Assembly (NCBI RefSeq): GCF_000423425.1
Contig: NZ_AUHY01000006.1
Location: forward strand, 1 to 64,000
Direction: 5' to 3'
Origin: Meiothermus rufus DSM 22234
Lineage (GTDB): Bacteria > Deinococcota > Deinococci > Deinococcales > Thermaceae
DNA length: 64,000 nt
Shown in pieces: positions 9,714-26,442 of this stretch (position 1 is its first letter; the number at the start of each line of letters is the position of its first letter). The notes under the pieces were generated by a model. It was not told where the DNA came from. It did no database searches and saw nothing but the letters and a program-made list of their open reading frames with translations. Both the position numbers and the translations under genes were made by a program.

Positions 9714-10850
9714 ATGTCTGGCTACGATGTGCTGATTGTGGGGGCAGGGATTATCGGGGCGGCCTGTGCCTACCGCCTAGCCGAACGGGGGTTGCGGGTG
9801 GGGGTGCTCGAGCGGGCCCCGGCTCCGGCTATGGGCTCCACCGGCAAGAGCGCTGCGGGGGTGCGGGTGCAATTTACCGAGGCCACCAATATTCTTCTGT
9901 CCTGGCACTCCATTCAGGAGTACCGGCAGATGCCCGAGGCGGCCTACCGGCCCATTGGCTACTTGCTTTTGGTACCCGAAGGCCAGTGGGCCGCGCACCT
10001 GGAGGGCGTGGCGCTGCAACAGCAACTGGGCGTGCCGGTGGAGGTGCGCGACCTCGAGGCAGCCCAGGAGTGGTTCAACTTTTTACCGCTGGCAAAGGGC
10101 CTAGAGCCCATCCGGGGGGCGACCTACGGCCCTGCCGACGGCATCGTAGACCCCCACGGCATCTGCCTGGCGTATTTGCACCGGGCGCGGGCGCTGGGGG
10201 CCGAACTTTATACCGGGACCGAGTTTCTGGCCGCCGAACCCGATGGCGTTGGTTGGCAGGTGCAGACCTCGAGGGGCCTTTTTACGGCCCGCTACGTGCT
10301 GAATGCCGCGGGGGCCTGGGCCGGCGAGGTGGGCCGGCGGGCGGAGCTTTCCATTCCGGTAGAGCCGGCCCGGCGGATGGTCTTCTGCACCGCACCGGTG
10401 CCACACCCCTACTGGCATCCCCTGACCATCGACCTTTCCAGCGGCTTCTGGTTTCGCCCCGAACACGACCGGCTGATTTTTGGCCGCAGCAACCCCGCCG
10501 ACCTGGGCTTCCAGGAAGGCATGGACTGGGCCTGGCTCGAGCCCACCCTGGAGGTGGGCCTGGCCCGCTTCCCCTGGCTAGAGCGCCTTCAGCTCGACCA
10601 AAGGGCTAGCTGGTGGGGCTACTACGAGATCACCCCCGACCACAATCCCATCCTGGGGCATATGCCGGGCGTGGAAGGCTGGGTGAACGCCTGCGGCTTC
10701 TCCGGCCACGGGGTGCAGCAGGCCGCCATGGTGGGCCGCCTGATGGCCGAGGAAATTGTTCTGGGCCAAGCCCAGAGCCTAGACATCACGCCTTTGCGCT
10801 ACGAGCGCTTCCTAAGGGAAAAGCGGTTGGTGGAAAAGAACATCGTCTAG
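9714..10850 (+). CDS. FAD-dependent amine/amino-acid oxidoreductase (DAO family)
   Basis: A 378-residue flavoprotein. DVLIVGAGIIGAACAYRLAE is the N-terminal FAD dinucleotide fold, AAGAWAGEVGRRA the second FAD contact, and GWVNACGFSGHGVQQA the C-terminal flavin motif of the sarcosine oxidase beta / DadA group. It probably oxidises a secondary amine or amino acid; the substrate is not evident. The ATG at 9714 is chosen because TATAGT (9701-9706) lies seven bases upstream and the first residues then lead straight into the FAD motif. It converges on the hydrolase gene with a four-base overlap. Confidence 0.87.
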   Translation: MSGYDVLIVGAGIIGAACAYRLAERGLRVGVLERAPAPAMGSTGKSAAGVRVQFTEATNILLSWHSIQEYRQMPEAAYRPIGYLLLVPEGQWAAHLEGVALQQQLGVPVEVRDLEAAQEWFNFLPLAKGLEPIRGATYGPADGIVDPHGICLAYLHRARALGAELYTGTEFLAAEPDGVGWQVQTSRGLFTARYVLNAAGAWAGEVGRRAELSIPVEPARRMVFCTAPVPHPYWHPLTIDLSSGFWFRPEHDRLIFGRSNPADLGFQEGMDWAWLEPTLEVGLARFPWLERLQLDQRASWWGYYEITPDHNPILGHMPGVEGWVNACGFSGHGVQQAAMVGRLMAEEIVLGQAQSLDITPLRYERFLREKRLVEKNIV

Positions 10851-11659
10851 CCCAAGGCCCGCCATAGGGGGCTTTGGGGGTTGGCCAGGGCCTCTAGGAT
10901 GTTGAAGTGGTGGTAGCCGGGCAGCACCATCACCTCGGGGCAGTTCTGCGGCCAGGCCTGGTGCAAGAGCTGGCTCTGACGGTGAAACTCGCTGGACTCG
11001 AGGGCCCCCACCGCCAGCACCAGCGGGGCGGGGAGGGTGGGCTTTTTATGAACCGGGCTACAGGCTCGAGCCTGGGCGCTGTCTAGCCGTAGGTCGGCGT
11101 TGACCGAGACCTGAAGAAGGGGCGTCAGGTCGAACAGGCCGCTGAGGGCCAGCCCCCCCACAATGGCCTGGTCTGGCACACCGTAGTCGGCCCACTGGGT
11201 GGCGAATAGCTCGGCGGTCAGGTGTCCCCCGGCGGAGTGCCCGCTAAGAACCATGCGCTGGCTGTCGGCCCCGTAGCGAGGGGCCTGGTGGTAAAGCCAG
11301 GCTACCGCCCGGCGGCACTGCTCGGTGATCTCGGCCAGGCTGACTGCAGGGCACAGGGGGTAGTTCAGCACCGCCAGGCTAAGGCCTGCCTCCACCAGGG
11401 GTGGGGCTAGCCAGGAGAAGTCGTCCTTGTCGAAGGCCCGCCAGTAGCCACCGTGGATGAAGACCAGCAGGAGGCGGCTTTTTTGTGCGGGAAAGAGGTC
11501 GAGGGTCTCCTTAGGCCCGGGGCCATAGGCCAGGTTGGCCCGGTAGGCTAGCTGCGCCCGCGCGGCCCGGGAATCCTCGGCCCAGCGGCGGAAGTATTCG
11601 GCATGCTCGGGTACCGAGAGCCGGGGGTTGTACTGGAGTTCGTGCCAGGAGGGTTCCAT
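10847..11659 (-). CDS. alpha/beta hydrolase, probable kynurenine formamidase
   Basis: A 270-residue hydrolase with the oxyanion motif VFIHGGYWRAF, the nucleophile elbow SGHSAGGHL and a C-terminal catalytic His in GYHHFNILEAL. HGGYW-type hydrolases include the formamidases that hydrolyse N-formylkynurenine. The tryptophan dioxygenase and kynureninase genes on the same strand would need exactly this step, and no other candidate is present. The ATG at 11659 begins the conserved MEPSWHELQYNPRLSVPEH; the frame stays open for 60 codons upstream, but that part lies in an IS605-like remnant. It is separated from livF by that remnant. Confidence 0.75.
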   Translation of the reverse strand: MEPSWHELQYNPRLSVPEHAEYFRRWAEDSRAARAQLAYRANLAYGPGPKETLDLFPAQKSRLLLVFIHGGYWRAFDKDDFSWLAPPLVEAGLSLAVLNYPLCPAVSLAEITEQCRRAVAWLYHQAPRYGADSQRMVLSGHSAGGHLTAELFATQWADYGVPDQAIVGGLALSGLFDLTPLLQVSVNADLRLDSAQARACSPVHKKPTLPAPLVLAVGALESSEFHRQSQLLHQAWPQNCPEVMVLPGYHHFNILEALANPQSPLWRALG

Positions 11660-11664
11660 CTTGC

Positions 11665-12020
11665 TCGTGACGACTCCCCGGACTAAAGTCCAGGGCTTCT
11701 CGGGAATCATAGCATGGCTATGCCCGAAGGCCCCGTCCAGGCCCAGCATCGCATCGCGACGCAATACCTTGACTCCGTATCGGCAGGCGAGCGCTATGCT
11801 CAAGCTCTGCCATGGGTTTGCGTTTGGAGTTTTACCCACCGGACTACCCGGTGGAACCCCCTACCCCAAGTTTCAAGGTTCGCCGGGGACTTGCGTCCCC
11901 ATAGGGAATTGTAGCATACCTGTTGTCCAACACAGCAGTCCACCTGCGGTGGACGTGAGGGTCAGATTGCGCCGACGCCGAGCGCGGCGCAATCCCCCGG
12001 TTTGAAAACCGGGGGATTAT
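11665..12020 (-). mobile_element. IS200/IS605-like remnant (palindrome-associated, no transposase)
   Basis: About 355 bases of non-coding DNA between the hydrolase and livF. At the hydrolase end, minus strand AAGCCCTGGACTTTAGTCC followed by GGGGAGTCGTCAC looks like the right end (guide-RNA hairpin) of tnpB elements. At the livF end two adjacent perfect hairpins occur: ATTGCGCCG/CGGCGCAAT (11966-11993) and AATCCCCCGGTT/AACCGGGGGATT (11991-12018). No tnpA or tnpB coding sequence remains. The right end stops about six bases before the hydrolase ATG, and a TATGAT inside it could drive that gene. Identification is by pattern memory, not by search. Confidence 0.45.
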
Positions 12021-12042
12021 AGCCCCCCACGCCCCCTCTTCT

Positions 12043-12753
12043 CTAAACGCTCAGATACCGCTTCCATACCTCGGGCTGGTGCCGGAGGGCCTGGGAGTCG
12101 CCCTGCCAGACCACCCGCCCTCGCTCCAGGATGGTGTGCTGGTCGGCCAGGGCGATAAGCCGCTCGATGTACTTGTCGATGACCAGGATGGTCTGGCCGC
12201 TTTCCTTGAGGAGGCGCAAAGCGCGCCAGATTTCCTGGCGCAACAGGGGGGCCAGGCCTTCGGTGGCCTCGTCCAGGATGAGCAGCCGGGGGTTGGTCAT
12301 CAGGGCCCGGCCAATGGCCAGCATCTGCTGCTCGCCGCCGGAAAGCTGGTAGCCCAGGTGGTGCTGGCGCTCCTTCAGGCGGGGGAAAAGCGCGTAGATC
12401 CGCGAGAGGGTCCAGGGGTTGGGGCTTTGGTTGCGGTTGGCGGCAAAGGCCACCAGGTTCTCCTTCACGGTAAGGTTGGGGAAGATCTGCCGGCCCTCCG
12501 GCACCAGGGCAATGCCCCGGGCGGCGATCTGCTCGGGCGGCAGGCCGTCGATGCGCGCGCCGGCGAAGCGAATCTGGCCGGCGCGGGGTGGGGTCAGGCC
12601 CATAATGGAGCGCACCGTGGTGGTCTTGCCCATCCCGTTGCGGCCCAGCAGGGTGGCGACCTGGCCCGGTAGAATCTCCAGGTGGACGTCGAAGAGCACC
12701 TGGCTGGGGCCGTAGGCGGTCTGGAGTCCCCGGATTTCCAGCAGTGGATTCAC
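12043..12753 (-). CDS. livF: LIV-type ABC transporter ATPase (LivF)
   Basis: One of two ATPases of a branched-chain-amino-acid-type importer. The 236-residue protein has Walker A GRNGMGKTTT, signature LSGGEQQMLAIGRAL, Walker B LLILDEATEGLAP and the short LivF C-terminus. It overlaps livG by four bases (ATGA). Its position downstream of tryptophan and anthranilate genes suggests an aromatic substrate such as tryptophan, kynurenine or anthranilate rather than leucine; that is inference from context. Confidence 0.92.
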   Translation of the reverse strand: MNPLLEIRGLQTAYGPSQVLFDVHLEILPGQVATLLGRNGMGKTTTVRSIMGLTPPRAGQIRFAGARIDGLPPEQIAARGIALVPEGRQIFPNLTVKENLVAFAANRNQSPNPWTLSRIYALFPRLKERQHHLGYQLSGGEQQMLAIGRALMTNPRLLILDEATEGLAPLLRQEIWRALRLLKESGQTILVIDKYIERLIALADQHTILERGRVVWQGDSQALRHQPEVWKRYLSV

Positions 12754-13502
12754 AAAGCCCCTCCTTCGTCGCCCAGATAGGCTTTGTGCACCTCGGGGTT
12801 GGCGCGGATTTCCTCGGGGGGACCCGAGGCGATGACCTGGCCGTAGACCAGCACCGAGATACGCGCTGACAGGCGAAAGACCGCGTTCATATCGTGTTCG
12901 ATCAGCAGGATGGAAAGGCTTTGCCCCAGCCGGGCGATGAGTTCGACCATGCGCTCGGACTCCTCGAGCCCCAGCCCGGCCATGGGCTCGTCCAGAAGCA
13001 ACAGCTTGGGCTGGCAGGCCAGGGCCAGGCCCACCTCGAGCTGCCGCTGCTCGCCGTGGGAGAGCTGGGCCACCGGGGTGTGGTTGCGGGCGCTCAGGCC
13101 CAAGAGCTCGGAGACCTTCTCTGCCTCTTCCCGCAGGCCTCTCTCGCGCGACACCGGCTGCCAGAAGCGGAAGCTGCTGCCCAGGCGGGCCTGTACGGCC
13201 AGCTCGAGGTTCTCCAGCACGGTGTAGTTTTTGTAGAGGTTGGTGATCTGGAAGGTGCGGGCCAGGCCCAGCCGCACCCGCCGGTGCTGCGGCAGGGAGG
13301 TAATCTCCTGCCCGTCGAAGTAAATCCGGCCCCGGGTGGGGGGCAAGGCCCCGCTGATGAGGTTGATCAGGGTGGTTTTTCCTGCCCCGTTGGGGCCGAT
13401 CAGGGCGTGAATCTGGCCGGCCTCGACCTGCAGGTGGCAGTTGTTTACCGCGGCCAGGCCGCCAAACTGCTTGCTGAGGCCCTCTAGCACCAGGAGGCTC
13501 AT
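12750..13502 (-). CDS. livG: LIV-type ABC transporter ATPase (LivG)
   Basis: The second ATPase of the importer, 250 residues. Walker A GPNGAGKTTL, the LivG-specific ITSLPQHRRVRLGLARTFQ segment, signature LSHGEQRQLEVGLAL, Walker B LLLLDEPMAGLG and the C-terminal VHKAYLGDE are all present. The ATG at 13502 begins MSLLVLEGLSKQFGG; longer open reading upstream only shadows livM in another frame. It overlaps livM and livF by four bases each, indicating translational coupling. Confidence 0.93.
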   Translation of the reverse strand: MSLLVLEGLSKQFGGLAAVNNCHLQVEAGQIHALIGPNGAGKTTLINLISGALPPTRGRIYFDGQEITSLPQHRRVRLGLARTFQITNLYKNYTVLENLELAVQARLGSSFRFWQPVSRERGLREEAEKVSELLGLSARNHTPVAQLSHGEQRQLEVGLALACQPKLLLLDEPMAGLGLEESERMVELIARLGQSLSILLIEHDMNAVFRLSARISVLVYGQVIASGPPEEIRANPEVHKAYLGDEGGAL

Positions 13503-14422
13503 AGACCCTTCCTCCGGCGCCATAGCCCGGCTAAGCCCTTGGGGGCAAACAGCACCACCAGCAGCAGGATCACCCCCACCCCAAGCTGCCAGTGGATGGT
13601 CAGGTCTTGCAGCACCTCCTCCACCAGCGACAGCACCACCGCGCCCAGCACCCCGCCCCAGAACTGCCCCACCCCACCCAGGATGACCATCATCATCAGG
13701 TGGCCGGACTGCTGCCAGGCCAGCAGGTTGGGGGAGGCGTACTGGGTGTAGTGGGCCATCAGTACCCCGGCCAGCCCGGCCAGCGTTCCAGCCAGCACGA
13801 AGGCCAAAAGCTGGAAGTAGTAGACCGGGTAGCCCAAAGCTGCGGTGCGCGACTCGTTTTCCCGGATGGCCTGCAGTACCCGGCCAAACCTCGAGCCCAC
13901 CAGGCGGTAAAGCCCGTACAGGCAAGCCGCCAGCACGCCCAGGGTGAGGTAGTAGAGGGTGGTGTCGTTGAGCTCGAACAGACCGAACTCGGGCCGCCTT
14001 GCCCTAAGCCCATCCTCGCCGCCGTACTGTTTGAAGGAGACCACCACGAAGTAGATCATCTGGGCAAAAGCCAGGGTAATCATGATGAAGTAGACCCCCC
14101 GGGTGCGCAAAGAGATGGCCCCAATCAAGAAGGCCAGCAGGGCACACAGCGCCAGGGCCACCGGCCAGATCACCCAGGCCGAGGTCAGTCCTTCGCGGGT
14201 CAGGATGGCCACGGTGTAGGCCCCCACCCCGAAGTAGGCTGCATGGCCGAAACTGACCATACCGCCGTAACCCAGGATCAGGTTGAGGCTGCTGGCGGCC
14301 AGGGCGAAGATCATGATCTTGGTCAGCAGGCCCATGTAGAACTCGAGGCCGGTCGCGCTGGCTACGGGGGGAAAGGCCAAAAGCAGGCCCAAAAGCAGTA
14401 AGAGCCATCCCTTTCGCAACAT
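13499..14422 (-). CDS. livM: LIV-type ABC transporter permease (LivM)
   Basis: A 307-residue permease with about eight to ten membrane helices and the LivM landmarks SLNLILGYGGMVSFGHAAYFGVGAY and IRENESRTAALGYP, the coupling-helix region. It ends in APKGLAGLWRRRKGL. It overlaps livG by four bases and lies ten bases after livH. It works with LivH as the membrane channel for the binding protein encoded upstream. Confidence 0.92.
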   Translation of the reverse strand: MLRKGWLLLLLGLLLAFPPVASATGLEFYMGLLTKIMIFALAASSLNLILGYGGMVSFGHAAYFGVGAYTVAILTREGLTSAWVIWPVALALCALLAFLIGAISLRTRGVYFIMITLAFAQMIYFVVVSFKQYGGEDGLRARRPEFGLFELNDTTLYYLTLGVLAACLYGLYRLVGSRFGRVLQAIRENESRTAALGYPVYYFQLLAFVLAGTLAGLAGVLMAHYTQYASPNLLAWQQSGHLMMMVILGGVGQFWGGVLGAVVLSLVEEVLQDLTIHWQLGVGVILLLVVLFAPKGLAGLWRRRKGL

Positions 14423-14431
14423 CCGGTACTC

Positions 14432-15352
14432 CTAGGTGCGCGCTGGGAACAGGCCCTGGGGCTTGAAGAAGAGCACCACCGCCATCAGCAGATAGATCAG
14501 GATGGAGGCCAGGGCCGGGCCCAGGTTGGAGGCCACCTCGGGCGAGGCCACCTGCCCTAGCAGCAGGGGTAGAAAGGCCCGCCCGGCGGTGTCCACAATG
14601 CCTACCAGCAAGGCCCCCACCAGTGCCCCCTTGATCGAACCGATGCCCCCAATCACAATCACCACAAAGGCCAGTATCAGAATGCTCTCGCCCATGCCCA
14701 CCTGCACGGCCAGAATGGGGCCCAGGAAAGCCCCGGCCACCGCGCAAAGGGCCGCGCCCACCCCAAACAGCAGGGTGAAGAGGGGCTTGATGGGTACCCC
14801 CATGGCCTGGGCCATCTCCCGGTTTGAGGCCCCGGCCCGCAGCCACATGCCGGCTCGGGTGTGGTTGACCAAGAGCAAAAGCAGCACCGCTACCGCCAGC
14901 CCGACCGCAATGATGGTCAGGCGAAAAGCCGAGTAGAAGAGGCCCGGCAGAATTTCCACCGGCCCCGAAAGCCCTTCGGGGGCCGAGAGCAGCAAGGGCT
15001 GGGAGCCCCAGATGAGCCGTACCCCCTCGTTGAGGATGAGGATCAGGGCAAAGGTGGCCAGTACCTGGGAAAGGTGGTCCCGCCGGTAGAGCTGGCGCAG
15101 GATGGAGACCTCGAGCAGCATCCCAATCAGGGCCGTGCCCAGCACCGCCAGCACCACCGCCAGCCAGAAGACCCCGGTGAGGCCCACCAAGGTGGCGGTC
15201 AGGTAGGCCCCGATCATGTACAGCGAGCCGTGGGCCAGGTTGATCATGTCCATGATGCCAAAGACCAGGGTCAGGCCGGCCGCGAGCAGAAAGAGCATCA
15301 GGCCAAACTGCAGGCCGTTCAGCATCTGTTCTAGGAACAAAGAAGGGGGCAT
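14432..15352 (-). CDS. livH: LIV-type ABC transporter permease (LivH)
   Basis: A 306-residue permease beginning MPPSLFLEQMLNGLQFGLML, with the family motifs AGLTLVFGIMDMINLAHGSLY and VVIVIGGIGSIKGALVGALL, and ending in FFKPQGLFPART. Eight or more hydrophobic helices are visible. It starts nine bases after the stop of the binding-protein gene, with no separate promoter, so it is co-transcribed with it. Confidence 0.92.
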   Translation of the reverse strand: MPPSLFLEQMLNGLQFGLMLFLLAAGLTLVFGIMDMINLAHGSLYMIGAYLTATLVGLTGVFWLAVVLAVLGTALIGMLLEVSILRQLYRRDHLSQVLATFALILILNEGVRLIWGSQPLLLSAPEGLSGPVEILPGLFYSAFRLTIIAVGLAVAVLLLLLVNHTRAGMWLRAGASNREMAQAMGVPIKPLFTLLFGVGAALCAVAGAFLGPILAVQVGMGESILILAFVVIVIGGIGSIKGALVGALLVGIVDTAGRAFLPLLLGQVASPEVASNLGPALASILIYLLMAVVLFFKPQGLFPART

Positions 15353-15361
15353 AGGGACGGG

Positions 15362-16525
15362 TTAGCGCAGCTTGCACTGCGATACGTAGGCGTCGCTGTG
15401 GTTGGTGAAGATGGTGCCCACCAGCCGGTTGACGATCTCGCCATTGGGGGCCTGGATCACCTGGCGCAGGTAGTAATTCTGGATGGGGTAGCCGTTGGGG
15501 TTGAACTTCAGGGGGCCTCGAGTGCTGTTAAAGCCGGCCAAAAAAGCCTTGCGCAGCTCGTCTTTTTTGCTCAGGTCGCCGCCCACCGCCCGGATGGCCG
15601 CATCCAGCATCAGGGCGGTGTCGTAGCCTTGCGAGGCGTAGAGGGTGGGGGTGCGGCCATAGGCCTTGCGGAACTCCTCCACAAAGCGCTGGTTCACCGG
15701 GTTGTTGAGCTCGAGGGCCCACTGCGAGCTGTTGTAGACCCCCACCAAAGCCCGGCCCACCGCCCGGATGACGTCGGCATCGGCAGAGAAACCGGGCAGA
15801 AAGAGGGGAATCTCCCGCATCAGGCCCGCTTCGGCATACTGCTTGATGAAGTTAACCCCCATGGCCCCGGGCTCGAAGGCGTAGACCGCTCTGGGCCTAG
15901 CGGCCCGAATCTGGGCAATCTCGGCGGAGAAGTCGAGCTGGTTGAGGCGGTGGTACACCTCGGCCACCACCCGGCCCCTGTAGAAGCGCTTAAAGCCGGT
16001 CAGGGCGTCGCGCCCGGCAGGGTAGTTGGGGGCCAGCAGGAAGACGTTTTCGAAGCGGCGGGTCTGGACATACTGCCCCATGGCCTCGTGCAGATTGTCG
16101 TTCTGCCAGGCGGCGTTGAAGAAGTAGGGGCTGCAGCGCTCCCCGGCGTACTCCGAGGGGCCGGCGTTCAGGCTGATGTAGAAGACCTTTTCCTCGAAGA
16201 TGGCCTCGCCTACCGCCAGCAGGATGTTGGAGAAGATGATACCGGTGAGGAAGTCGACCCGGTCGCGCTTGAGCATCCGGTCCACCGCCTGACGGGCCAC
16301 GTCGGGGTTCTGCTGGTCGTCGGCGATCAGAACCTCCACCGGCAGGCCGCCTAGCTGGTTGTTCAAAAGCCGCACCGCCAGGTTGAAGCCGTCGCGGGCG
16401 TCGATGCCCAAGGCGGCCCCGCCACCGGAGAGGGTGCTGACGAAGCCCACCTTGACGCTGCGCGGCTGGGCCAGGGAAAAACCAACCAACCCCAAGAAAA
16501 CCAACAACCAGAGCACTTTTTTCAT
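15362..16525 (-). CDS. LIV-type periplasmic substrate-binding protein
   Basis: A 387-residue exported receptor of the type I periplasmic fold. It has a Sec signal peptide (MKKVLWLLVFLGLVGFSLAQ) cut near residue 20, then VKVGFVSTLSGGGAALG and RDGFNLAVRLLNNQLGG. The ligand pocket carries Asn and Tyr residues (FYISLNAGPSEYAG) and an RCSPYFFNAAWQND segment seen in receptors for aromatic compounds as well as amino acids. GGAGG precedes the ATG, and a possible -10 TATCAT (16558-16563, minus) suggests a promoter of its own inside the long cluster. Aromatic substrate is inferred from the neighbours. Confidence 0.88.
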   Translation of the reverse strand: MKKVLWLLVFLGLVGFSLAQPRSVKVGFVSTLSGGGAALGIDARDGFNLAVRLLNNQLGGLPVEVLIADDQQNPDVARQAVDRMLKRDRVDFLTGIIFSNILLAVGEAIFEEKVFYISLNAGPSEYAGERCSPYFFNAAWQNDNLHEAMGQYVQTRRFENVFLLAPNYPAGRDALTGFKRFYRGRVVAEVYHRLNQLDFSAEIAQIRAARPRAVYAFEPGAMGVNFIKQYAEAGLMREIPLFLPGFSADADVIRAVGRALVGVYNSSQWALELNNPVNQRFVEEFRKAYGRTPTLYASQGYDTALMLDAAIRAVGGDLSKKDELRKAFLAGFNSTRGPLKFNPNGYPIQNYYLRQVIQAPNGEIVNRLVGTIFTNHSDAYVSQCKLR

Positions 16526-16593
16526 CCTTACCTCCTAGGGCTTGCCGTGTTTGAGGCATGATACCGGGTTTGCCATGATTTGTTGAGCCTCAC

Positions 16594-17421
16594 TCATAGC
16601 TCGGTGCGCACCTGCCACAGCTCGGGGAAGAGCACGACCTCCAGGGCCCGCTTCAAATAGGGCACCCCGGCGGTGCCCCCGCTGCCAGGCTTGTGGCCGA
16701 TGGTGCGCTCGACGGTGGTCAGGTGGTTGAAGCGCCAGCGGCGGAAGTTGTCCTCGAGGTCAACCAGCTTTTCGGCCAGGTAGTAAAGCTCCCAGTGCTC
16801 CTCGGGCTGGTGGTAGACCTGTAGCCAGGCCTGCAGCACCGCAGGGTGGGCCTGGTAGGGCTGGGTGTAGTCGCGCTCCAGCACCTCGGCAGGCAACGGC
16901 AGCCCCCGGGCGGCGAGCAGGCGCAGGGTCAGGTCGTAGAGGCTGGGGGCTTTGAGGGCCTCTTCCAGCCGCTGGTGGTGGGCGGGCTGGTGCCGGTGGG
17001 GCCGCATCATGAAAGGCACTTTGTTGCCCAGCAGAAACTCCACCAGGCGATACTGGTACGACTGGAAGCCCGAGGCCCGCCCAAAGGCCCAGCGGAACTT
17101 CAGGTAGTCGGCGGAGGTCATGGTCTTGAGCACCTCCCAGCTCCGGCTCATCTGCTCCTGGACCCGGCAGACCCGGGTGAGCATCTTGAGGGCCGGGTCT
17201 ACTACCCCCTGGGCCAGCAGCCCCATGGCGGCTTCCAGCTCGTGGATGATGAGCTTCAGCCATAGCTCCTGCACCTGGTGGATCAGGATGAAGAGCATCT
17301 CGTCGTGGGCCGGGGTAAGGGGGTGCTGGGCCGATAGCACCTGCTCAAGCCGCAGGTAGTCGCCGTAGGACAAATCCTGGCCGAAGTCGGTGTGGGCCTG
17401 GGTATAGATCTCGTCCTTCAT
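16594..17421 (-). CDS. kynA: tryptophan 2,3-dioxygenase
   Basis: Haem enzyme that opens the indole ring of L-tryptophan to N-formylkynurenine. The 275-residue protein has the standard TDO sequence: DLSYGDYLRLEQVLSAQHP, the distal-side EMLFILIHQVQELWLKLIIHE, RRWRFNHLTTVERTIGHKPG containing the haem-ligating His, and the substrate loop GSGGTAGVPYLK. It starts ten bases after kynU, so the two are coupled. Confidence 0.96.
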   Translation of the reverse strand: MKDEIYTQAHTDFGQDLSYGDYLRLEQVLSAQHPLTPAHDEMLFILIHQVQELWLKLIIHELEAAMGLLAQGVVDPALKMLTRVCRVQEQMSRSWEVLKTMTSADYLKFRWAFGRASGFQSYQYRLVEFLLGNKVPFMMRPHRHQPAHHQRLEEALKAPSLYDLTLRLLAARGLPLPAEVLERDYTQPYQAHPAVLQAWLQVYHQPEEHWELYYLAEKLVDLEDNFRRWRFNHLTTVERTIGHKPGSGGTAGVPYLKRALEVVLFPELWQVRTEL

Positions 17422-17431
17422 GGCATCCCCT

Positions 17432-18658
17432 TCAGGTCACTTTGGCCCGGGCCTGGTAGTGAGGGTCTTTCCAGAGGGCCTGCTCGAGTACCCGCTTTAG
17501 CCGTTCTACCGCCTCCACCACGTCGGCATAGCGCAGGTAAAGCGGGGTGAAGCCAAAGCGCAGGATGTCTGGGGCGCGGAAGTCGCCGATGACCCCCTGG
17601 TCGATCAGGGCCTGCATGATGGCGTAGCCCTCGGGGTGGCGGTAGGAGACCTGGCTGCCCCGCCGATGGTGCTCCAAGGGGGTGGCCAGGCGGAGGCCGT
17701 AGCGCCGGGCCAGGGGCTCCATGCGCTCGATAAACAGATCGGTAAGGCCCAGCGACTTCTGCCGCACGGTTTCCAGATCCACGTCGGCGAAGACCTCGAG
17801 GGCCGCGTCCAGTGCACAGAGCGAGAGGATGCTGGGGGTGCCCACCATCAGGCGGCGGATGTCCTCGGCGGGGGTGTACTCCGGCATGAAGGCAAAGGGG
17901 TTCTGGTGGCCCATCCAGCCCGAAAGGAAGGGCACCACCGATGGCTGGTGCCGCTCGGCCACGAACAAAAAGGCCGGAGCACCGGGGCCGCCGTTCAGGT
18001 ACTTGTAGCCGCAGCCCACTGCGAAGTCCACCTGGTGCCGATTAAGCGCCACCGGGAAGGCCCCCGCGCTGTGGGCCAGATCCCACAGCACCAGGGCGCC
18101 GTGCTGGTGGGCCAGCCGGGTCAGGTGGGCCATGTCGTGGCGGTAGCCGGTGCGGTAGTCCACCTCGGTCAGCAGCAGCACCGCGGTCTGGTCGTCCAGG
18201 GCGGCCTCGAGGCCCTCCTTGTCGACCAGGCTTAGCTCGTAGCCTTCTAGCAGCCGGGCCACTCCCTGGGCGATGTACAGGTCGGTGGGGAAGTTGTCCC
18301 GCTCCGAAACGATAACCTTGCGCCCCGCCCGAAGCCGCAAAGCAGCTAGCAGCAGTTTGAAGAGATTGACCGAGGTGGAGTCGGCGGCCACCACCTCCTC
18401 TGGCTTGGCCCCAATCAGCCGGGCGATCTTGGCCCCGACCCGCTGGGGCAGGTCGATCCAGCCGTGGCGGTTCCAGCTACGGATCAGGTCCTGGCCCCAC
18501 TGCTGGGCCACCACCTGCTCGAGGTGGCCCAGTACCCGCCGGGGCAGGGCGCCCAGCGAGTTGCCGTCCAGGTAGATCACCCCAGGGGGCAGGACGAACT
18601 CGGCCCGCTTGTGCCGTAGGGGGTCGGTCCGGTCGAGGGTGTGGATGGGGGTTGGCAT
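17432..18658 (-). CDS. kynU: kynureninase
   Basis: PLP enzyme that splits kynurenine to anthranilate and alanine. The 408-residue protein shows YLDGNSLGALPRRV near the N-terminus, the PLP-lysine segment GCGYKYLNGGPGAPAF, and SQVSYRHPEGYAIMQALIDQGVIGDFR near the C-terminus, all typical of KynU. The order kynU-kynA, with no kynurenine monooxygenase gene in the window, indicates flux to anthranilate rather than to 3-hydroxyanthranilate. Confidence 0.96.
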   Translation of the reverse strand: MPTPIHTLDRTDPLRHKRAEFVLPPGVIYLDGNSLGALPRRVLGHLEQVVAQQWGQDLIRSWNRHGWIDLPQRVGAKIARLIGAKPEEVVAADSTSVNLFKLLLAALRLRAGRKVIVSERDNFPTDLYIAQGVARLLEGYELSLVDKEGLEAALDDQTAVLLLTEVDYRTGYRHDMAHLTRLAHQHGALVLWDLAHSAGAFPVALNRHQVDFAVGCGYKYLNGGPGAPAFLFVAERHQPSVVPFLSGWMGHQNPFAFMPEYTPAEDIRRLMVGTPSILSLCALDAALEVFADVDLETVRQKSLGLTDLFIERMEPLARRYGLRLATPLEHHRRGSQVSYRHPEGYAIMQALIDQGVIGDFRAPDILRFGFTPLYLRYADVVEAVERLKRVLEQALWKDPHYQARAKVT

Positions 18659-18667
18659 AGGACTCCT

Positions 18668-19081
18668 TTACTCCGGTATAACCGCGGTGGCTTCGATCTC
18701 TACCTTGGCCCGCTCCTCCATCAGGGCCTTGACCTCCACCACCGACATGGGGGGGAAGTGGCGCCCCATCACCGCACGGTAGGCGGCCCCCAGGTCTTCC
18801 AGCGAGGCCAGGTACTCCTCTTTACTGGTGACGAACCAGGTCAGGCGCACCACGTGGGCGGGGCCGGCCCCGGCCTCGGCCAGCACCGCCACGATGTTTT
18901 GTAGGGCCTGGCGGGCCTGCCCCACGAAATCGTCGGTCTCGAACTGGCCCTCGGGGTTCCAGCCCACCATCCCGGCCACGAAGACCAGGGTGCCCCGGGC
19001 GGCCATGCCGTGGGTATAGCCCTTGGGCTGGGGCCAGCCTGGTGGGTGCAGGATGCGGGGGGTCTCCCGCACCGGCTTCAT
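18668..19081 (-). CDS. RidA/YjgF family protein
   Basis: A 137-residue member of the RidA family of enamine/imine hydrolases: GTLVFVAGMVGWNPEG, QARQALQNIVAVLAEAGAGPAHVVRLTWF and a C-terminal VEIEATAVIPE. The usual C-terminal catalytic-site Arg region (PxRxx) is replaced by PPMSVVEVKAL, as in RidA subfamilies distinct from classical RidA. It sits between the aminobenzoate-CoA ligase (four-base overlap) and kynU, so it may hydrolyse an enamine formed during anthranilate breakdown. That role is inference from operon position. Confidence 0.85.
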   Translation of the reverse strand: MKPVRETPRILHPPGWPQPKGYTHGMAARGTLVFVAGMVGWNPEGQFETDDFVGQARQALQNIVAVLAEAGAGPAHVVRLTWFVTSKEEYLASLEDLGAAYRAVMGRHFPPMSVVEVKALMEERAKVEIEATAVIPE

Positions 19082-20703
19082 GCTGCGCCCCCTTTGGGCT
19101 GGGCCTCCTGCCGCAGCAGGTAGCGCTGCAGCTTGCCGGTCTGGGTGCGGGGCAGGCTCTCGCGGAACTCGATGGCCCGGGGATACTTGTAAGGGGCAAT
19201 TTTCTGCTTCACGAAGTCCTGTAGCTCCCGGGCCAGCTCGGCGGAAGGGGCTACTTCGGGCCTTAGCACCACGAAGGCCTTAACGATCTGCCCCCGCTCG
19301 GGGTCGGGCACCCCCACCACCGCACACTCGGCTACCGCGGGGTGCAGCAGTAAAGCGTCTTCGACCTCCGGCCCGGCGATGTTGTAGCCGGAGGAGATGA
19401 TCATGTCGTCGGTGCGGGCCTGGTAGATGAAGTAGCCCTCCTCGTCCATCAAGTAAGCATCGCCGGTGATGTTCCAGCCGTGCTGCACATAGTTGCGCTG
19501 GCGCTCATCGGCCAGGTAGCGGCAGCCGGTGGGGCCCCGCACCGCCAGCCGCCCTATCTGGCCGGGGGGCAGGGGCCGGCCCTGCTCGTCCAGGATGCAG
19601 GCTTCGTAGCCCGGCACCGGCTTGCCGGTGGCCCCGGGTTTGGCCTCCTCCTCGGTGTGGGAGATGAAGATGTGCAGCATCTCGGTGGCCCCGATCCCAT
19701 CGATGAGCTCAACTCCGGTAGCCTCCTTCCACAGCTGGCGGGTAGAGGCAGGCAATGGCTCTCCGGCAGAGACACATTTGCGCAGGGAGGAGAGGTCGTG
19801 CTTGGAAGCCTGGGCGGCCATGGCCCGGTAGGCGGTGGGGGAGGTGAAGAGCACGTTGGCCTGGAACTCGGCTAAAGCGGGCAGCAGCAGCTCGGGGCTG
19901 GCCTTTTCCAACAGCAGGCTCGAGGCCCCGATGCGCAAGGGGAAAAGCACCAGCCCCCCTAAGCCAAAGGTGAAGGCCAGCGGAGGACTGCCGGTGAACA
20001 GGTCGTCGGGGGAGGCCCGCAGCACGTGCTTGGCGAAGGTATCGCAGATGGCCAGGACATCGCGGTGGAAGTGCATGCAGCCCTTGGGCTTGCCGGTGGT
20101 GCCGGAGGTGAAGGCGATCAGGCAGGTGTCCTCGCTGGCGGTCTCAACATTGGTGAAGTGGGCGGGCTGGCGCTGCATCAGGGCCTCGAGCTGCCCTCCC
20201 TCCCCCCAGTAGACCACATGCTCTAGGCTGGGGCAGCCGGGCCGGGCCTGCTCCAGCTCTTCCCGCAGGCGGATATCGCACAGGGCGTGGCTGATCTGGG
20301 CCTTGTGGGTCACCTCGATCAGCTCCTTGGCCCGCAGCAGCGGCATGGTGGTGACCGCAATGCCCCCGGCCTTCATCACCCCGAACCAGGCCGCGACCAG
20401 CATGGGGTGGTTAGGCCCCCGCAGCAGCACCCGATTGCCGGGCACCAAGCCCATCTCCCGGGTGAGCACCTGGGCAATACGGTTGGCCTGCTCTAGAAGC
20501 TGGCCGTAGCTCCACGAAAGCCCCGGGGCCCGCAGGCAGAGGCGGTCGGGGTGCTGCTCGGCCACCCGATCCAATAGCTCGCTGGCACAGTTGAGCCGCT
20601 CGGGATAGTGCAGCTCCGGCAGCTTGAAGATAAGCTCGGGCCACTCGGCCTTGGGGGGTAGGTGGTCTTTGGCGAAGGTGTCTATATGGGCGCTATACCC
20701 CAT
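19078..20703 (-). CDS. 2-aminobenzoate-CoA ligase (AMP-forming)
   Basis: Activates anthranilate, or a related benzoate, to its CoA thioester. The 541-residue ANL-superfamily protein begins with the benzoate-ligase start [14 protein letters not shown], has the phosphate loop [32 protein letters not shown] as the A5 motif, the hinge [17 protein letters not shown] and the catalytic Lys in [13 protein letters not shown]. The co-encoded kynureninase and aminobenzoyl-CoA monooxygenase/reductase make 2-aminobenzoate the most likely substrate; plain benzoate cannot be excluded from sequence. Confidence 0.87.
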
Positions 20704-21895
20704 CTTCAGCCCTCCTTTCCTGGAAACGCTTGAGCAACTCCCGGGCGATGATGAGCTGCTGCACCTCGCTGGCCCCTTCGTAGATGCGCAGGGCGCGGAT
20801 TTCGCGGTACAGCCGTTCGACCACCTGCCCCCGGGTTACGCCCAGCCCGCCCCATAGCTGCACCGCGGCGTCGATGACCTGCTGGGCGTTTTCCGTGGCG
20901 CTAAGCTTGGCCATGGCGGCCTCCTGGGTGATGCGCGCTCCCCGGTCGCGCAGCCAGGCCGCGCGGTAGGTGAGCAGGGCTGCGGCCTCGATCTGGGTGG
21001 CCATCTGGGCCAGCCTGGCCTGGGTGAGCTGGAAGTGGGCCAGGCTCTGGCCAAAAAGAACACGCTGGGTGGCCCGCTTTAAAGCCTCGTCCAGCGCGCG
21101 CCGGGCAAAGCCCAAAGCTGCGGCAGCCACTGAGGTGCGGAAGACATCCAGGGTCTGCATGGCGATTTTGAAGCCCTGGCCTTCCTCGCCCAGCCGCTGG
21201 CGGGCGGGTATGCGGCAGCCCTGAAAGCGCAGGCTGGCCAGGGGGTGGGGGGCCATGACCTCGAGGCGTTGGGCGATTTCTAGCCCCGGGGTGTCCGCCT
21301 CCACCACAAAGGCGCTGATGCCCTGGGTGCCCTGGCTTCCTGGGCTGCGGGCAAAGACCACGTAGAAGTCGGCGATGCCCCCGTTGGAAATCCAGGTCTT
21401 CTCTCCCTCGAGCACATAGTCTTCCCCCTCGAGCCGGGCCTGGGTGGTCAGGGCCCCCACGTCGGAGCCGGCCTCCGGCTCGGAGAGGGCGAAGGCGGCA
21501 ATATAGCGGCCCTGGGCCACCGGGGGGAGGTAGCGCGCTTTCTGCGCCGGGGAGCCAAAAAGGCTGATGGCCCCCGAGCCTAAGCCCTGCAGGGCGAAGG
21601 CGAAGTCGGCCAGCCCGTGGTGGTAGGCCAGGGTCTCGCGGATCAGGCAGACCGCCCGGGTGTCGATGGCCTCGGCGGCGCCGCCGTAGGCCTGGCCCCC
21701 CACCGCGTAGCGGGTCCAGCCTCCCTGGCCCAGGACCTGCACCAGGCGGCGGCAGGCCTGGTCTACCTCCGGCACAGAGGCTGCGCCATCCAGATCAAGA
21801 CCGCCCAGGGCGTGCCTGGCCCAGTCGGCCAGCTCGAGGGCCAGCCGGCGGTGGTGCGCCTCGAAGAAGGGCCAGTCCAGATAGGCGCTATCCAC
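20693..21895 (-). CDS. acyl-CoA dehydrogenase
   Basis: A 400-residue flavoprotein of the acyl-CoA dehydrogenase family: [19 protein letters not shown], the FAD contact [19 protein letters not shown], a helical C-terminal domain, and the closing motif [19 protein letters not shown] with the expected catalytic Glu region. It starts at a GTG and overlaps the ligase start by 11 bases. In this operon it probably oxidises a ring-derived acyl-CoA after reduction or opening of the aminobenzoyl ring. Confidence 0.88.
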
Positions 21896-21896
21896 C

Positions 21897-22715
21897 TCAG
21901 TCCCCCTGGAAGACCGGTTTCTCCTTGGCCACGAAGGCCTGGTAGGCCCGGCGGAAGTCGTGGGTGGCCATGCACAAAGCCTGGGCCTGGGCCTCGGCCT
22001 CGAGGGCTTCCTCCAGGCCCATGCTCCACTCCTGGTGCAGCATCCGCTTGGTCATCGCATGGGCAAAGGTAGGGCCTTGGGCCAGCGAGCGGGCCAGGGC
22101 CTGGGCCTCGGCCAGCAGGCTTTCCGGTGGGCACAACCGGTTGAAGAAACCCCAGGCCAGGGCTTCCTCGCCGCCCAGGGTGCGGCCCGTGTACAAAAGC
22201 TCGGCGGCCCGCCCCTGGCCCACGATACGCGGCAGCATGGCACAGGCCCCCATGTCGCAGCCGGCCAGCCCCACCCGCACAAAGAGGAAGGCCACCCGGC
22301 TGCGGGCCGTACCGTAGCGCAGGTCGGAGGCCATGGCCAGTATGGCCCCGGCCCCGGCGCAAACCCCGTCCACCGCGCTCACGATGGGCTGGGGGCAGGC
22401 CCGCATGGCTCGCACCAGGTCGGCGGTCAGGCGGGTGAAGGCCAGCAGGCCCGGCATCGCCATCTGGGTAAGGGGGCCGATGATCTCATAGACATCCCCG
22501 CCGGAGCAGAAGTTGCCCTCGGCCCCGGATAGCACCACCGCCTTTACCTCTTGGGTCTGGGCCAAAGCCCGGAAAAGGTCGCGTAGCTCGGTGTACGACT
22601 CGAAGGTGAGGGGGTTTTTGCGTTCGGGCCGGTTCAGGGTAATGGTGCCGACGCCCTCTTCTACCTTCCAGAGGAAGTGTTGCGCGGGGTAGTGGGCCAG
22701 TTCGTGGGGGTTCAT
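21897..22715 (-). CDS. enoyl-CoA hydratase/isomerase family protein
   Basis: A 272-residue crotonase-fold protein. [16 protein letters not shown] forms the first oxyanion segment and [21 protein letters not shown] the second, where the usual catalytic glutamates are partly replaced. This pattern is seen in hydratase-like proteins of aromatic-CoA pathways and may reflect hydrolytic or lyase chemistry. It overlaps marR by four bases and ends one base before the acyl-CoA dehydrogenase GTG. Confidence 0.85.
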
Positions 22716-23194
22716 GGGGCCTCCTTTTGGTTGAGGTGGGCCTTGAGCTTGCCCAGCAGAGTGTACAGACTCTCTTTTTCCGCTGCCGAGAGACCGCCGA
22801 ACAGCTCGATAACCCAGCCCTCGTGCACCCGGGCCATCTCGGCGAAGAGCTGCTGGCCCTTAGGGGTCAGCCGGACGATGAAGGAGCGGCGGTCCTGGGG
22901 GTCTATTTCGCGGCGCACCAGCCCCTCGGCCTCGAGCTGGTCGGTGATGCCGGTGACGTTTCCGGTAGTGACCATCATGCGGCGGGAAAGCTCGCCCATG
23001 CGCAAGCCCTCCGGGTGGCGCTCGAGCTGGGCCAAGAGGTCGAAGCGGGGCAGGGTGGTCTCGAAGCGCTCGCGCAGCCGGGTGCGAATCTCGGCGGTGA
23101 TCAGGTTGGTGCAGGTCAAAAGGCGCAGCCAGAGCTTCAGGGCCTGGTGGTGGTCCTCGGCCAGGCGGGTCTCCAGGTCGGGCTTGGGCAGCAC
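22712..23194 (-). CDS. MarR-family transcriptional regulator
   Basis: A 160-residue winged-helix regulator: helical dimer region ([22 protein letters not shown]), recognition helix in [21 protein letters not shown] and the MarR wing [16 protein letters not shown]. The start is GTG at 23194, overlapping the SDR stop by one base, with GGAGGGGAGG upstream. The frame stays open much further 5' but there it only shadows the SDR gene. It probably senses an aromatic CoA thioester or anthranilate and binds the palindrome at 26383-26405, which would make it autoregulatory. Confidence 0.9.
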
Positions 23195-23967
23195 TACATC
23201 ACCTCCCCTCCGGCGATGGCGATGGCCTGGCCGGTCAGGGCCGCCGAGCCGGGTAGGCACAGCCAGAGCACGGCCTGGGCCACCTCGGCGGGCTCGACCA
23301 GCCGGCCCTGGGGGTTGGCCTGGGTGAGCAGGGTGCGGGCCTCGGCCTGGCTGCGCCCGGTTCTCTGGGCAATCTGGGCCAGGCTGGCCTCGAGCAGCTC
23401 GGTCTGGGTATAACCGGGACAGACTGCGTTGACGGTGATGTTTTTGCGGGCCAGTTCCAAAGCCAGTGCGCGGGTCAGGCCCACCAGCCCGTGTTTGGCC
23501 GCGCAGTAGGCGCTCACGTAGGGGTAGCCCCGCAGCCCGGCGGTGCTGGCCACGTTCACGATGCGACCCCAGCCCACCTCCAGCATCCCTGGCAGGGCGG
23601 CCTGGGTGCAGAGGAAGGCCCCGGTCAGGTTCACCTCGAGCATGCGCTGCCACAGCGTCAAGGTAGTCTGGCCAAAGGGCTGGCTCTCGACCTGCCCGGC
23701 GTTGTTGACCAGGATGGTCACCGGGCCCAGGGCCGCTAGGGCGCCCTGGAAGGCCCGCTCTACCTGGGCGGGGTCGGTGATGTCGCAGGTTTCCAGGTGG
23801 GTTTGGGCTGGGAGTCTTGCGGCCTGGGCCTCCAAGGCCGCCCGCTGGCGCCCCAGCAGGGTGAGCCGGGCTCCGGCCTGGGCCAAGGCCTGGGCAATGG
23901 CCGCCCCAATGCCGCGCCCCGCGCCGGTGACCAGGGCGTGCCGTCCTTGCAGGGGCAGGGGGCTCAT
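23194..23967 (-). CDS. short-chain dehydrogenase/reductase
   Basis: A 257-residue SDR with the cofactor loop [16 protein letters not shown], and catalytic Tyr/Lys in [11 protein letters not shown]. It begins at ATG 23967, overlapping the monooxygenase/reductase stop by four bases. It could reduce the ring ketone of 2-amino-5-oxocyclohex-1-enecarboxyl-CoA, the known product of the preceding enzyme, or act as a 3-hydroxyacyl-CoA dehydrogenase. Both are inferences from context. Confidence 0.88.
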
Positions 23968-26303
23968 CGCAGGGCCAGCTCCTCGGCCAGCTCGGCCTGG
24001 GTTCGGGCCAGGTTGCGCTCGAGCTGGGCTTTGCCCGAGAGGTACGGCATGGGCCAGGTTATCTCGCGGTAGCCCAGCTTGGCCGCCTCGAGCAGCGTCC
24101 AGTGGGGGTTGGCCAGATGGGGCCGGGCGATGGCGCACAGGTCGGCCCGTCCGGCGGCGATGATGGAGTTTACGTGGTCGGCTTCGTAGATGGCCCCTAC
24201 CGCCATGGTGGCGATCCCCACCTCGTTGCGGATGCGGTCGGCGAAGGGGGTCTGGTACATCCGCCCGTAGATGGGCCGGGCCTGGCGGGTGGTCTGGCCC
24301 GAGGAGACGTCGATCAGGTCGCAGCCAGCCTCCTTGAACATCCGGGCCATCTCCACCGCATCGTCGGGGGTGTTACCGCCGGGAGCCCAGTCGTGGGCGG
24401 AGATGCGCACCGACATAGGCAGGTGCTCCGGCCAGACCGCGCGCAGCGCGCGGAAGACCTCGAGGGGGTAGCGCATGCGGTTTTCCAGGCTGCCCCCGTA
24501 GGCATCGGTGCGGTGGTTGGTGAGGGGGCAGAGGAAGGCTGAAAGCAAGTAGCCGTGGGCGCAGTGCAGCTCGAGCCAGTCGAAGCCCGCCTCGAGGCCC
24601 CATAGTGCGGCCTGCACGAACTCGGCCTTGACCCGCTCCATGTCCTCTTGGGTCATCGCCCGCGGGGTCTGGTTGTTGGGGCCATAGGGGATAGGGGAGG
24701 GGGCGATAAGGGGCCAGTTCCCCTCCGGCAGGGGTTCGTCCATGGCCTCCCAGCCCACCTGGGTCGAGCCCTTGGGCCCGGCGTGCCCTAGCTGGAGGGC
24801 GATTTTGGCGTCGGTGTAGGTGTGTACGAAGTCCACGATCCGCTGGTAGGCCCGCATATGGGCCTCGCTCCACAGCCCGGCGCAGCCGGGGGTGATCCGT
24901 GCTTCGGGGGAGGGGGCGGTCATCTCGGTGAAGACCAGCGCGGCCCCGCCTAAGGCCCGGGCCCCCAGGTGCACCAGGTGAAAGTCGTTCACCAGGCCGT
25001 CCTTTGCCGAGTACATGGCCATGGGCGAGACCACCACCCGGTTTTTTAGGGTGAGGCTACGCAGGCGGAAGGGGGTGAACATGGGGGGCACCGGCTTGGG
25101 CGGCAGGCCGGCGCGCTGGGCCAGCCAGGTCTCCACATGCTCCAAAAAGCGGCGGTCGCGCAGCCGCAGGTTTTCGTGGGAGATGCGCTGGGAGCGGGTG
25201 AGCAGGCTGTAGGCGAACTGCAGGGCCTCGAGGCCGCTGTAGCGCTCCACGTTCTCGAACCACTCGGTGGAGTTGCGGGCGGCGTTTTGCAGCTTCAGCA
25301 CCTCCACCTGGCGCACCGCCTGGTAGGCTTCCAGCACCTCTTTTAGGCGGTCGGGGCTGTCGCCTAAGCGGGCGAAGGTGCGGCTTAGTTCGATGGCGTC
25401 CTCCAGGGCCAGCTTGGTGCCGCTGCCGATGGAGAAATGCGCAGTATGGGCGGCATCCCCCATCAGCACCACCGGAACCTCGCGCCCCTCGAGGCGGTTC
25501 CAGTGCACCCAGCGCTGGCAGACCACCCGGGGGAACTTGATCCAGATGGCCGAGCCGCGCAGATGGGCGGCGTTGGACAGGAGCTTGTGGCCCTCCAGGT
25601 GCTTAGCAAAAAGCCGCTCACAGAAGGCGATGCCCTCCTCCTGGCTCATCTCTTCCAGGCCGGCCTTCTGCCACACCGCCTCCGGGGTTTCCACGATGAA
25701 GGTCGAGGTATCGCTGTCGAAGGGGTAAGCGTGGGCCTGGAACCAGCCCCACTCGGTTTTCTCGAAGGCGAAGGTAAAGGCCTCGAAGCGTTTTTTGGTG
25801 CCCAGCCAGACGAAGCGGCACTTGCGCACGTCGATATCCGGCCCGAAGGTCTGGGCGTACTTCTGGCGGGTGCGGCTATTGATGCCGTCGGCGGCGATGA
25901 CCAGGTCGGCCTGGTAGGCCCAGGCCACGGCCTCGTCGTCGGTGACCTCGGTCTGGAAGACCAGGTTCACCCCCAGCTCTACGCAGCGCTCCTGCAGGAT
26001 TTGCAACAGCCGCTTGCGCCCGATGCCGATAAAGCCGTGCCCGGTGGTGCGGATGACCTGCCCTTTGAAGTGGATTTCGATGTCGTCCCAGTGATAGAAG
26101 GCCTGGCGGATGCGGTGGTAGCTGGGGTAGTCGGCCTGTTCCAGGTTGGCCAGGGTCTGGTCGGAGAAGACCACCCCCCAGCCGAAGGTGTCGTCGGGCC
26201 GGTTGCGCTCGAGCACGGTGATTTCGTGGGCAGGGTTCTGCTTTTTCATCAGCAGGGCGAAGTACAGCCCGGCTGGCCCCCCGCCGATGCAGACGATTCT
26301 CAT
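23964..26303 (-). CDS. 2-aminobenzoyl-CoA monooxygenase/reductase (two-domain flavoprotein)
   Basis: A 779-residue fusion and the signature enzyme of the cluster. Residues 1 to about 400 form an FAD monooxygenase like salicylyl-CoA 5-hydroxylase ([14 protein letters not shown] at 5-18, the FAD motif [16 protein letters not shown] near 280). From about 408 an old-yellow-enzyme FMN domain follows ([38 protein letters not shown]). In the known enzyme one half hydroxylates and the other reduces the aromatic ring of 2-aminobenzoyl-CoA, giving a non-aromatic product. It is the first large gene of the operon and overlaps a short upstream ORF by four bases. Confidence 0.88.
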
Positions 26304-26356
26304 AGCCCAACCTCGGGGCTGGTTTGGGTAAGAGGCTCTTTGGGGCTTCCCGTCAT
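26300..26356 (-). CDS. 18-codon upstream ORF coupled to the monooxygenase/reductase
   Basis: [18 protein letters not shown], with AGGAGG correctly spaced before its ATG and its TGA overlapping the ATG of the next gene (ATGA). This is stronger initiation sequence than the large gene itself has. It contains no Trp codons, so classical tryptophan attenuation is unlikely; translational coupling or a small regulatory peptide is more plausible. Whether it is translated cannot be decided from sequence alone. Confidence 0.5.
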
Positions 26357-26382
26357 GCTGGCCCTCCTGGTCTTGGTTGTGT

Positions 26383-26405
26383 ATTTTAGACCTAAAATGT
26401 TTAGG
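26383..26405. promoter_or_regulatory. probable MarR operator
   Basis: Two overlapping inverted repeats: ATTTTAG-AC-CTAAAAT (26383-26398) and CCTAAA-ATG-TTTAGG (26391-26405). They lie just downstream of the -10 box, over about +2 to +25 of the predicted transcript, where a repressor would block transcription. The AT-rich palindrome stands out from its GC-rich surroundings. Confidence 0.7.
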
Positions 26406-26413
26406 TGTAAAGC

Positions 26414-26442
26414 AATATAGACAAGCCAGGGTGCTTTGTCAA
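26414..26442 (-). promoter_or_regulatory. promoter of the anthranilate/tryptophan operon
   Basis: Minus strand TTGACA (26437-26442), exactly 17 bases, TATATT (26414-26419). It starts 12 bases after the mqnD stop codon and should drive the monooxygenase/reductase and the genes that follow without a break down to at least kynA. Confidence 0.85.

Follow-up and report, generated by a model that had tools for sequence, protein, structure and literature searches.

Comparison with described 2-aminobenzoyl-CoA systems

The 2-aminobenzoyl-coenzyme A (CoA) route of anthranilate breakdown (abm) is described from Azoarcus evansii, Arthrobacter sp. Rue61a and Cupriavidus, and its first two steps, as reviews present them, match those proposed here (PMC4539516, PMC3534580, PMC2842291, PMC8879955). 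For the Arthrobacter ligase encoded next to a member of the same family of 2-aminobenzoyl-CoA monooxygenase/reductase (ACMR), anthranilate-CoA ligase function has been demonstrated (PMC3534580). A curated survey of bacterial catabolism omitted tryptophan degradation via anthraniloyl-CoA monooxygenase/reductase because the knowledge was lacking (PMC9007349). Here we analyzed an ACMR gene cluster in the first 64,000 nucleotides of contig NZ_AUHY01000006.1 of Meiothermus rufus DSM 22234 (the window). Judged by sequence comparison, it is a single inducible operon for abm-type anthranilate breakdown with tryptophan-to-anthranilate genes built in, a reading to which we assign a probability of about 85%.

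Like the described abm systems, Meiothermus combines an anthranilate-CoA ligase with a two-domain monooxygenase/reductase, and its cluster includes a RidA-type gene, as one also stands beside these genes on Arthrobacter pAL1. It differs in carrying kynureninase and tryptophan 2,3-dioxygenase (TDO) inside the operon, in having an alpha/beta-hydrolase and no hotdog thioesterase, and in a MarR regulator where pAL1 has PaaX-type regulators. Fourteen genes run on the minus strand from 26303 to 12043, neighbours overlapping by no more than 11 bp or standing no more than 68 bp apart, and the hydrolase follows the last of them. In order of transcription the genes are:

23964..26303, minus strand: ACMR, 779 residues, with an FAD monooxygenase and an old-yellow-enzyme domain, first gene of the operon (PRK08255, 1391 bits; FAD_binding_3 and Oxidored_FMN of Pfam)
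23194..23967, minus strand: short-chain dehydrogenase (SDR; GxxxGxG and YxxxK in the sequence), overlapping the ACMR stop codon (ATGA)
22712..23194, minus strand: MarR regulator (PF01047, 54 bits), its start overlapping the SDR stop codon
21897..22715, minus strand: crotonase (PRK08258, 482 bits, cut-off 330)
20693..21895, minus strand: acyl-CoA dehydrogenase, catalytic Glu in IYEG (PF00441, 163 bits)
19078..20703, minus strand: 2-aminobenzoate-CoA ligase of the AMP ligase type (nearest solved relative 4wv3, 341 bits)
18668..19081, minus strand: RidA-type enamine/imine deaminase (PF01042, 83 bits)
17432..18658, minus strand: kynureninase (TIGR01814, 320 bits, cut-off 246)
16594..17421, minus strand: TDO (TIGR03036, 405 bits, cut-off 391)
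15362..16525, minus strand: substrate-binding protein (SBP) of the importer (PF13458, 257 bits; nearest solved relative 4evq)
14432..15352, minus strand: LivH-type permease (PF02653, 133 bits)
13499..14422, minus strand: LivM-type permease (PF02653, 139 bits)
12750..13460, minus strand: LivG-type ATPase (PF00005, 116 bits, and BCA_ABC_TP_C)
12043..12753, minus strand: LivF-type ATPase (PF00005, 106 bits)
10847..11659, minus strand: alpha/beta-hydrolase with HGGYW and GHSAGGH motifs, following livF

An earlier annotation made from the letters of the window (the sequence-only reading) had placed these enzymes and a MarR regulator on one strand, with the tryptophan-to-anthranilate enzymes beside the ACMR branch. 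The profile searches bear this out: TDO (the sole copy in the genome), kynureninase, ACMR and crotonase all score above their curated cut-offs, and the PRK08255 match spans 773 of the 779 ACMR residues (cut-off 1078 bits). The cluster had been drawn to 26356, but the ATG at that position opens an upstream reading frame of 18 codons; ACMR itself starts at 26303.

Conservation and distribution within the class

The neighbourhood search that the same annotation suggested was run on 111 genomes of the class, where full-length ACMR was found in 13 Meiothermus and one Thermus. The linkage is kept in Meiothermus, with the same gene order in 13 of 13 genomes; one of them (G032) lacks TDO only, and in two (G041 and G042) the cluster is split over contigs. 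All 15 genes are under purifying selection (pN/pS 0.09-0.44). The shared order and the selection together indicate conservation far beyond chance.

TDO occurs in 26 of the 111 genomes, 17 of them Meiothermus. Five Meiothermus carry the kynureninase-TDO pair, orthologous and in the same order, without ACMR, ligase, importer and hydrolase, and Thermus G066 (L044) has the full set except kynureninase and TDO. The two halves of the operon are thus separable, and the importer and hydrolase travel with ACMR. G066 is the sole Thermus species of the set with the module, and there the importer and hydrolase genes precede ACMR. In several Thermaceae the gene before the stand-alone pair (L073:5553-7811, L071:2324-4630; TDO alone at L079:7329-9626) encodes a xanthine-dehydrogenase-like molybdopterin subunit. 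A role of the pair in making NAD precursors through quinolinate was rejected, 3-hydroxyanthranilate dioxygenase (TIGR03037) being absent from the M. rufus genome and from the 15 genomes tested.

ACMR loci in other phyla and origin of the operon

A wider comparison covered 80 ACMR loci from 84,980 species, some of the loci being cut short. Orthologues of the SDR were found in 64, MarR in 70, crotonase in 70, acyl-CoA dehydrogenase in 67 and RidA in 62. Kynureninase genes of differing ancestry lie near ACMR in 25 of the 80 loci and show four arrangements: embedded downstream (Meiothermus), divergent (Burkholderiales), within the operon (Chloroflexota) and on the opposite strand (Myxococcota). 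We argue from this variety that the link has been selected repeatedly.

Close counterparts are found in the Sphaerotilaceae. Roseateles, Pelomonas and Mitsuaria have the same ACMR-SDR-MarR-crotonase-dehydrogenase-ligase set, an SBP-LivHMGF importer 53-77% identical to that of Meiothermus, and kynureninase and TDO alongside. Unlike in Meiothermus, their kynureninase and TDO genes are divergently transcribed and of proteobacterial origin, and the place after livF that the hydrolase takes in Meiothermus is occupied there by a hotdog thioesterase and then RidA. A linked set with a transporter is therefore less unusual than the sequence-only reading suggested: ACMR modules are widespread, the three Sphaerotilaceae genera combine one with kynurenine genes and an orthologous importer, and Chloroflexota have kynureninase inside the ACMR operon. 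It is well supported that this is an ordinary kind of catabolic operon for a pathway already known. The literature searched yielded no account of this cluster in Thermaceae, which does not prove that none exists. What looks new is the native kynureninase-TDO pair within a horizontally acquired module, the MarR operator motif across phyla, and the hydrolase in place of a hotdog thioesterase.

In quick trees the cluster's kynureninase and TDO fall among other Deinococcota sequences, and the stand-alone pairs of three Meiothermus nest among the cluster members; for ACMR, ligase and binding protein alike, the Meiothermus sequences make up a single clade. The Meiothermus ACMR is nearer to those of Gemmatimonadota, Chloroflexota and Betaproteobacteria (up to 73% identity) than to that of Thermus (62%). 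These patterns fit a horizontally acquired module that would have joined a native kynureninase-TDO pair once in Meiothermus and been lost later in some species; recombination could also explain the tree pattern. The Thermus ACMR pairs with that of L148, an uncultured bacterium, which points to a separate acquisition in Thermus. L148 itself has TDO, kynureninase, ACMR module and importer, and its very distant TDO (39% identity) and kynureninase (31%) would perhaps mean that the same operon was assembled there independently.

Proposed pathway

Anthranilate, rather than salicylate or benzoate, had been proposed as the substrate, and this is supported by the kynureninase linkage, by the ligase, whose nearest solved relative is the anthranilate-CoA ligase 4wv3 (341 bits; next a benzoate-CoA ligase, 278), and by the lack of gentisate 1,2-dioxygenase (TIGR02272) in the M. 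rufus genome and in the 15 genomes tested. In the proposed pathway, TDO would open tryptophan, a KynB-type arylformamidase encoded elsewhere in the genome would deformylate N-formylkynurenine, and kynureninase would yield anthranilate and alanine. Anthranilate, made internally in this way or imported by SBP-LivHMGF, would be activated to its CoA ester by the ligase, then hydroxylated and reduced by ACMR to 2-amino-5-oxocyclohex-1-enecarbonyl-CoA. RidA proteins hydrolyse enamines and imines, and since the ACMR product is an enamine/imine, we place RidA at the step that would free ammonia. The SDR may then reduce the 5-oxo group, the crotonase may open the ring hydrolytically, and the acyl-CoA dehydrogenase may begin beta-oxidation. 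MarR would hold the operon repressed from a palindrome at the promoter before ACMR and release it in response to an aromatic inducer.

Both hydratase glutamates are missing from the crotonase, and its Asp154, which by eye occupies the PaaG-type position, is invariant. This argues for an isomerase or hydrolase and not a hydratase, and the crotonase is our candidate for the ring-opening hydrolase or isomerase. The conserved seven-gene module and its operator narrow the search for the missing steps to a few testable enzymes. Meiothermus offers thermostable versions of these enzymes and natural pairs of species with and without the module.

Substrate of the importer

The sequence-only reading gave the tryptophan-breakdown cluster an importer of its own. 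If the importer took up tryptophan or kynurenine instead of aromatic carboxylates, this would fit its position directly behind TDO in Meiothermus, and kynurenine import would fit G032, which keeps kynureninase and importer without TDO. The importer nevertheless accompanies ACMR in Thermus G066, which has neither TDO nor kynureninase, and at L164 and L169, where these two genes are beyond reach, and it is missing where the pair stands alone. Among solved proteins the binding protein matches 4evq best, an ATP-binding cassette (ABC) transporter binding protein of R. palustris, whose group we take to be aromatic-acid binders. Tryptophan or kynurenine uptake is therefore unlikely, and anthranilate-like acids are the likelier cargo. 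G032 (L041) has lost TDO and KynB and kept kynureninase and the remaining cluster; it offers a natural experiment on a module supplied with substrate from outside.

Role of the alpha/beta-hydrolase

The HGGYW hydrolase had been named a kynurenine formamidase, in which case the cluster alone would run from tryptophan to a dearomatised CoA ester. Its HGGYW and GHSAGGH motifs, its place in one cluster with TDO and kynureninase, and a distant match to the solved Drosophila kynurenine formamidase (72 bits) speak for that role. Its nearer solved relatives, however, are of esterase/lipase types (135 and 121 bits), and its distribution follows a different partner. All 14 ACMR genomes, and 0 of the 97 others, have close orthologues (57-77% identity, >300 bits); the next match in the class reaches 91 bits. 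Such orthologues are absent from all five Meiothermus with TDO-kynureninase and without ACMR, and present in the one Thermus that has ACMR but neither TDO nor kynureninase. The hydrolase follows livF in every ACMR-bearing Meiothermus assembled across the junction, and in Thermus.

A KynB-type arylformamidase (181-234 bits), by comparison, is found in 26 of 26 TDO genomes. G032, the genome that lost TDO, and all Thermus lack it or have at most a distantly similar protein; some other families have it without TDO. The KynB-type protein of M. rufus lies on contig C41 and carries HLGTHLDAPWH, of the HxGTHxDxPxH type. The claim of a complete tryptophan set thus holds for the genome and fails for the cluster, the arylformamidase being encoded on C41. 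We consider it improbable that the cluster hydrolase is the formamidase of the pathway; N-formylkynurenine is probably deformylated by KynB. HGGYW alpha/beta-hydrolases should not be named formamidases from position alone.

At 39 other ACMR loci the gene directly preceding RidA or following livF encodes a hotdog protein, likened to 4-hydroxybenzoyl-CoA thioesterases by its HCDPAGIV motif only. The ACMR clusters of Meiothermus and Thermus yielded no such protein. Our preferred guess is that the hydrolase is a non-orthologous replacement of this thioesterase, that is, a putative acyl-CoA thioesterase; alternatively it may hydrolyse an imported anthranilate ester or amide. The context of the ~45% identical hydrolase homologues in Burkholderiales was generic, with no aromatic genes.

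Predicted MarR operator

A single island is conserved before ACMR among the 13 Meiothermus: CTAAATATTTTA and then TAAA, beside a promoter-like sequence. The features of this region are:

26375..26411, minus strand: predicted MarR operator, palindrome ACCTAAACATTTTAGGT and TAAA, a footprint in 13 Meiothermus, adjoining the -10 box on its downstream side
26414..26442, minus strand: promoter-like TTGACA-17-TATATT (11/12), beside the conserved island
26302..26356, minus strand: putative 18-codon upstream open reading frame with its own Shine-Dalgarno sequence, seen in the upstream alignment; its TGA overlaps the ACMR start codon

A weight matrix was built from the Meiothermus sites alone and then applied to other phyla. 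The predicted operator is the top-scoring place in the window, and the sites in other phyla lie mostly 50-75 bp before ACMR. In 57 of 73 upstream regions the best site beat all 60 dinucleotide shuffles (1.2 expected). A site was present in 60 of 61 loci with MarR and in 1 of 8 without it; random windows of the same loci gave 0.9%. In the Burkholderiales bins L095 and L104 both MarR and operator are absent.

Several points weigh against our interpretation. The MarR-less loci belong mostly to other phyla, and the association of MarR with the operator is therefore confounded with phylogeny. Thermus, with a MarR 57% identical, gave no scoring operator site. The C41 KynB aligns over its full length with TIGR03035 at 210 bits, slightly under the curated cut-off of 223. 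The order of the lower-pathway steps is our hypothesis. Finally, NCBIfam names the ACMR family 'salicylyl-CoA 5-hydroxylase/oxidoreductase', though its members act beside anthranilate-CoA ligases. A salicylate pathway of that kind, with salicylyl-CoA 5-hydroxylation, a gentisate-type route and kynurenine genes as accidental neighbours, was rejected as highly improbable, since the 15 genomes have no gentisate dioxygenase, the second, old-yellow-enzyme reductase domain of ACMR is intact, the ligase is nearest to an anthranilate-CoA ligase, and kynureninase is linked to ACMR repeatedly in unrelated phyla. Annotations as 'salicylyl-CoA 5-hydroxylase' should not be read literally.

Beyond the core of the anthranilate operon, we offer a broader scheme tentatively, with the odds somewhat against its holding in every part. 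SDR, PRK08258 crotonase, acyl-CoA dehydrogenase and RidA would form the lower pathway after ACMR, with RidA deaminating the enamine and the Asp-only crotonase cleaving the C1-C2 bond of the ring hydrolytically; the Thermaceae hydrolase would be an aminobenzoyl-CoA thioesterase that frees trapped CoA, standing in for the proteobacterial hotdog thioesterase; and MarR with CTAAATATTTTA would be an abm switch shared across phyla.

Other features of the locus

The upstream open reading frame overlaps the ACMR start (ATGA or GTGA) in most other Meiothermus and is missing in L032, L035 and L041; translational coupling to ACMR is possible. An Rfam scan of the cluster gave matches all far below the gathering scores. 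In this genome only, a ~380-bp hairpin-rich repeat (11663-12042) separates livF from the hydrolase, a gap of 5-80 bp in other Meiothermus, and the program-assigned hydrolase start at 11839 falls within it; the gene was taken as 10847-11659. Copies of the repeat at several other sites of the genome are 76-97% identical, and the z-score of single-strand folding is -6.1. It looks like a candidate non-autonomous mobile element.

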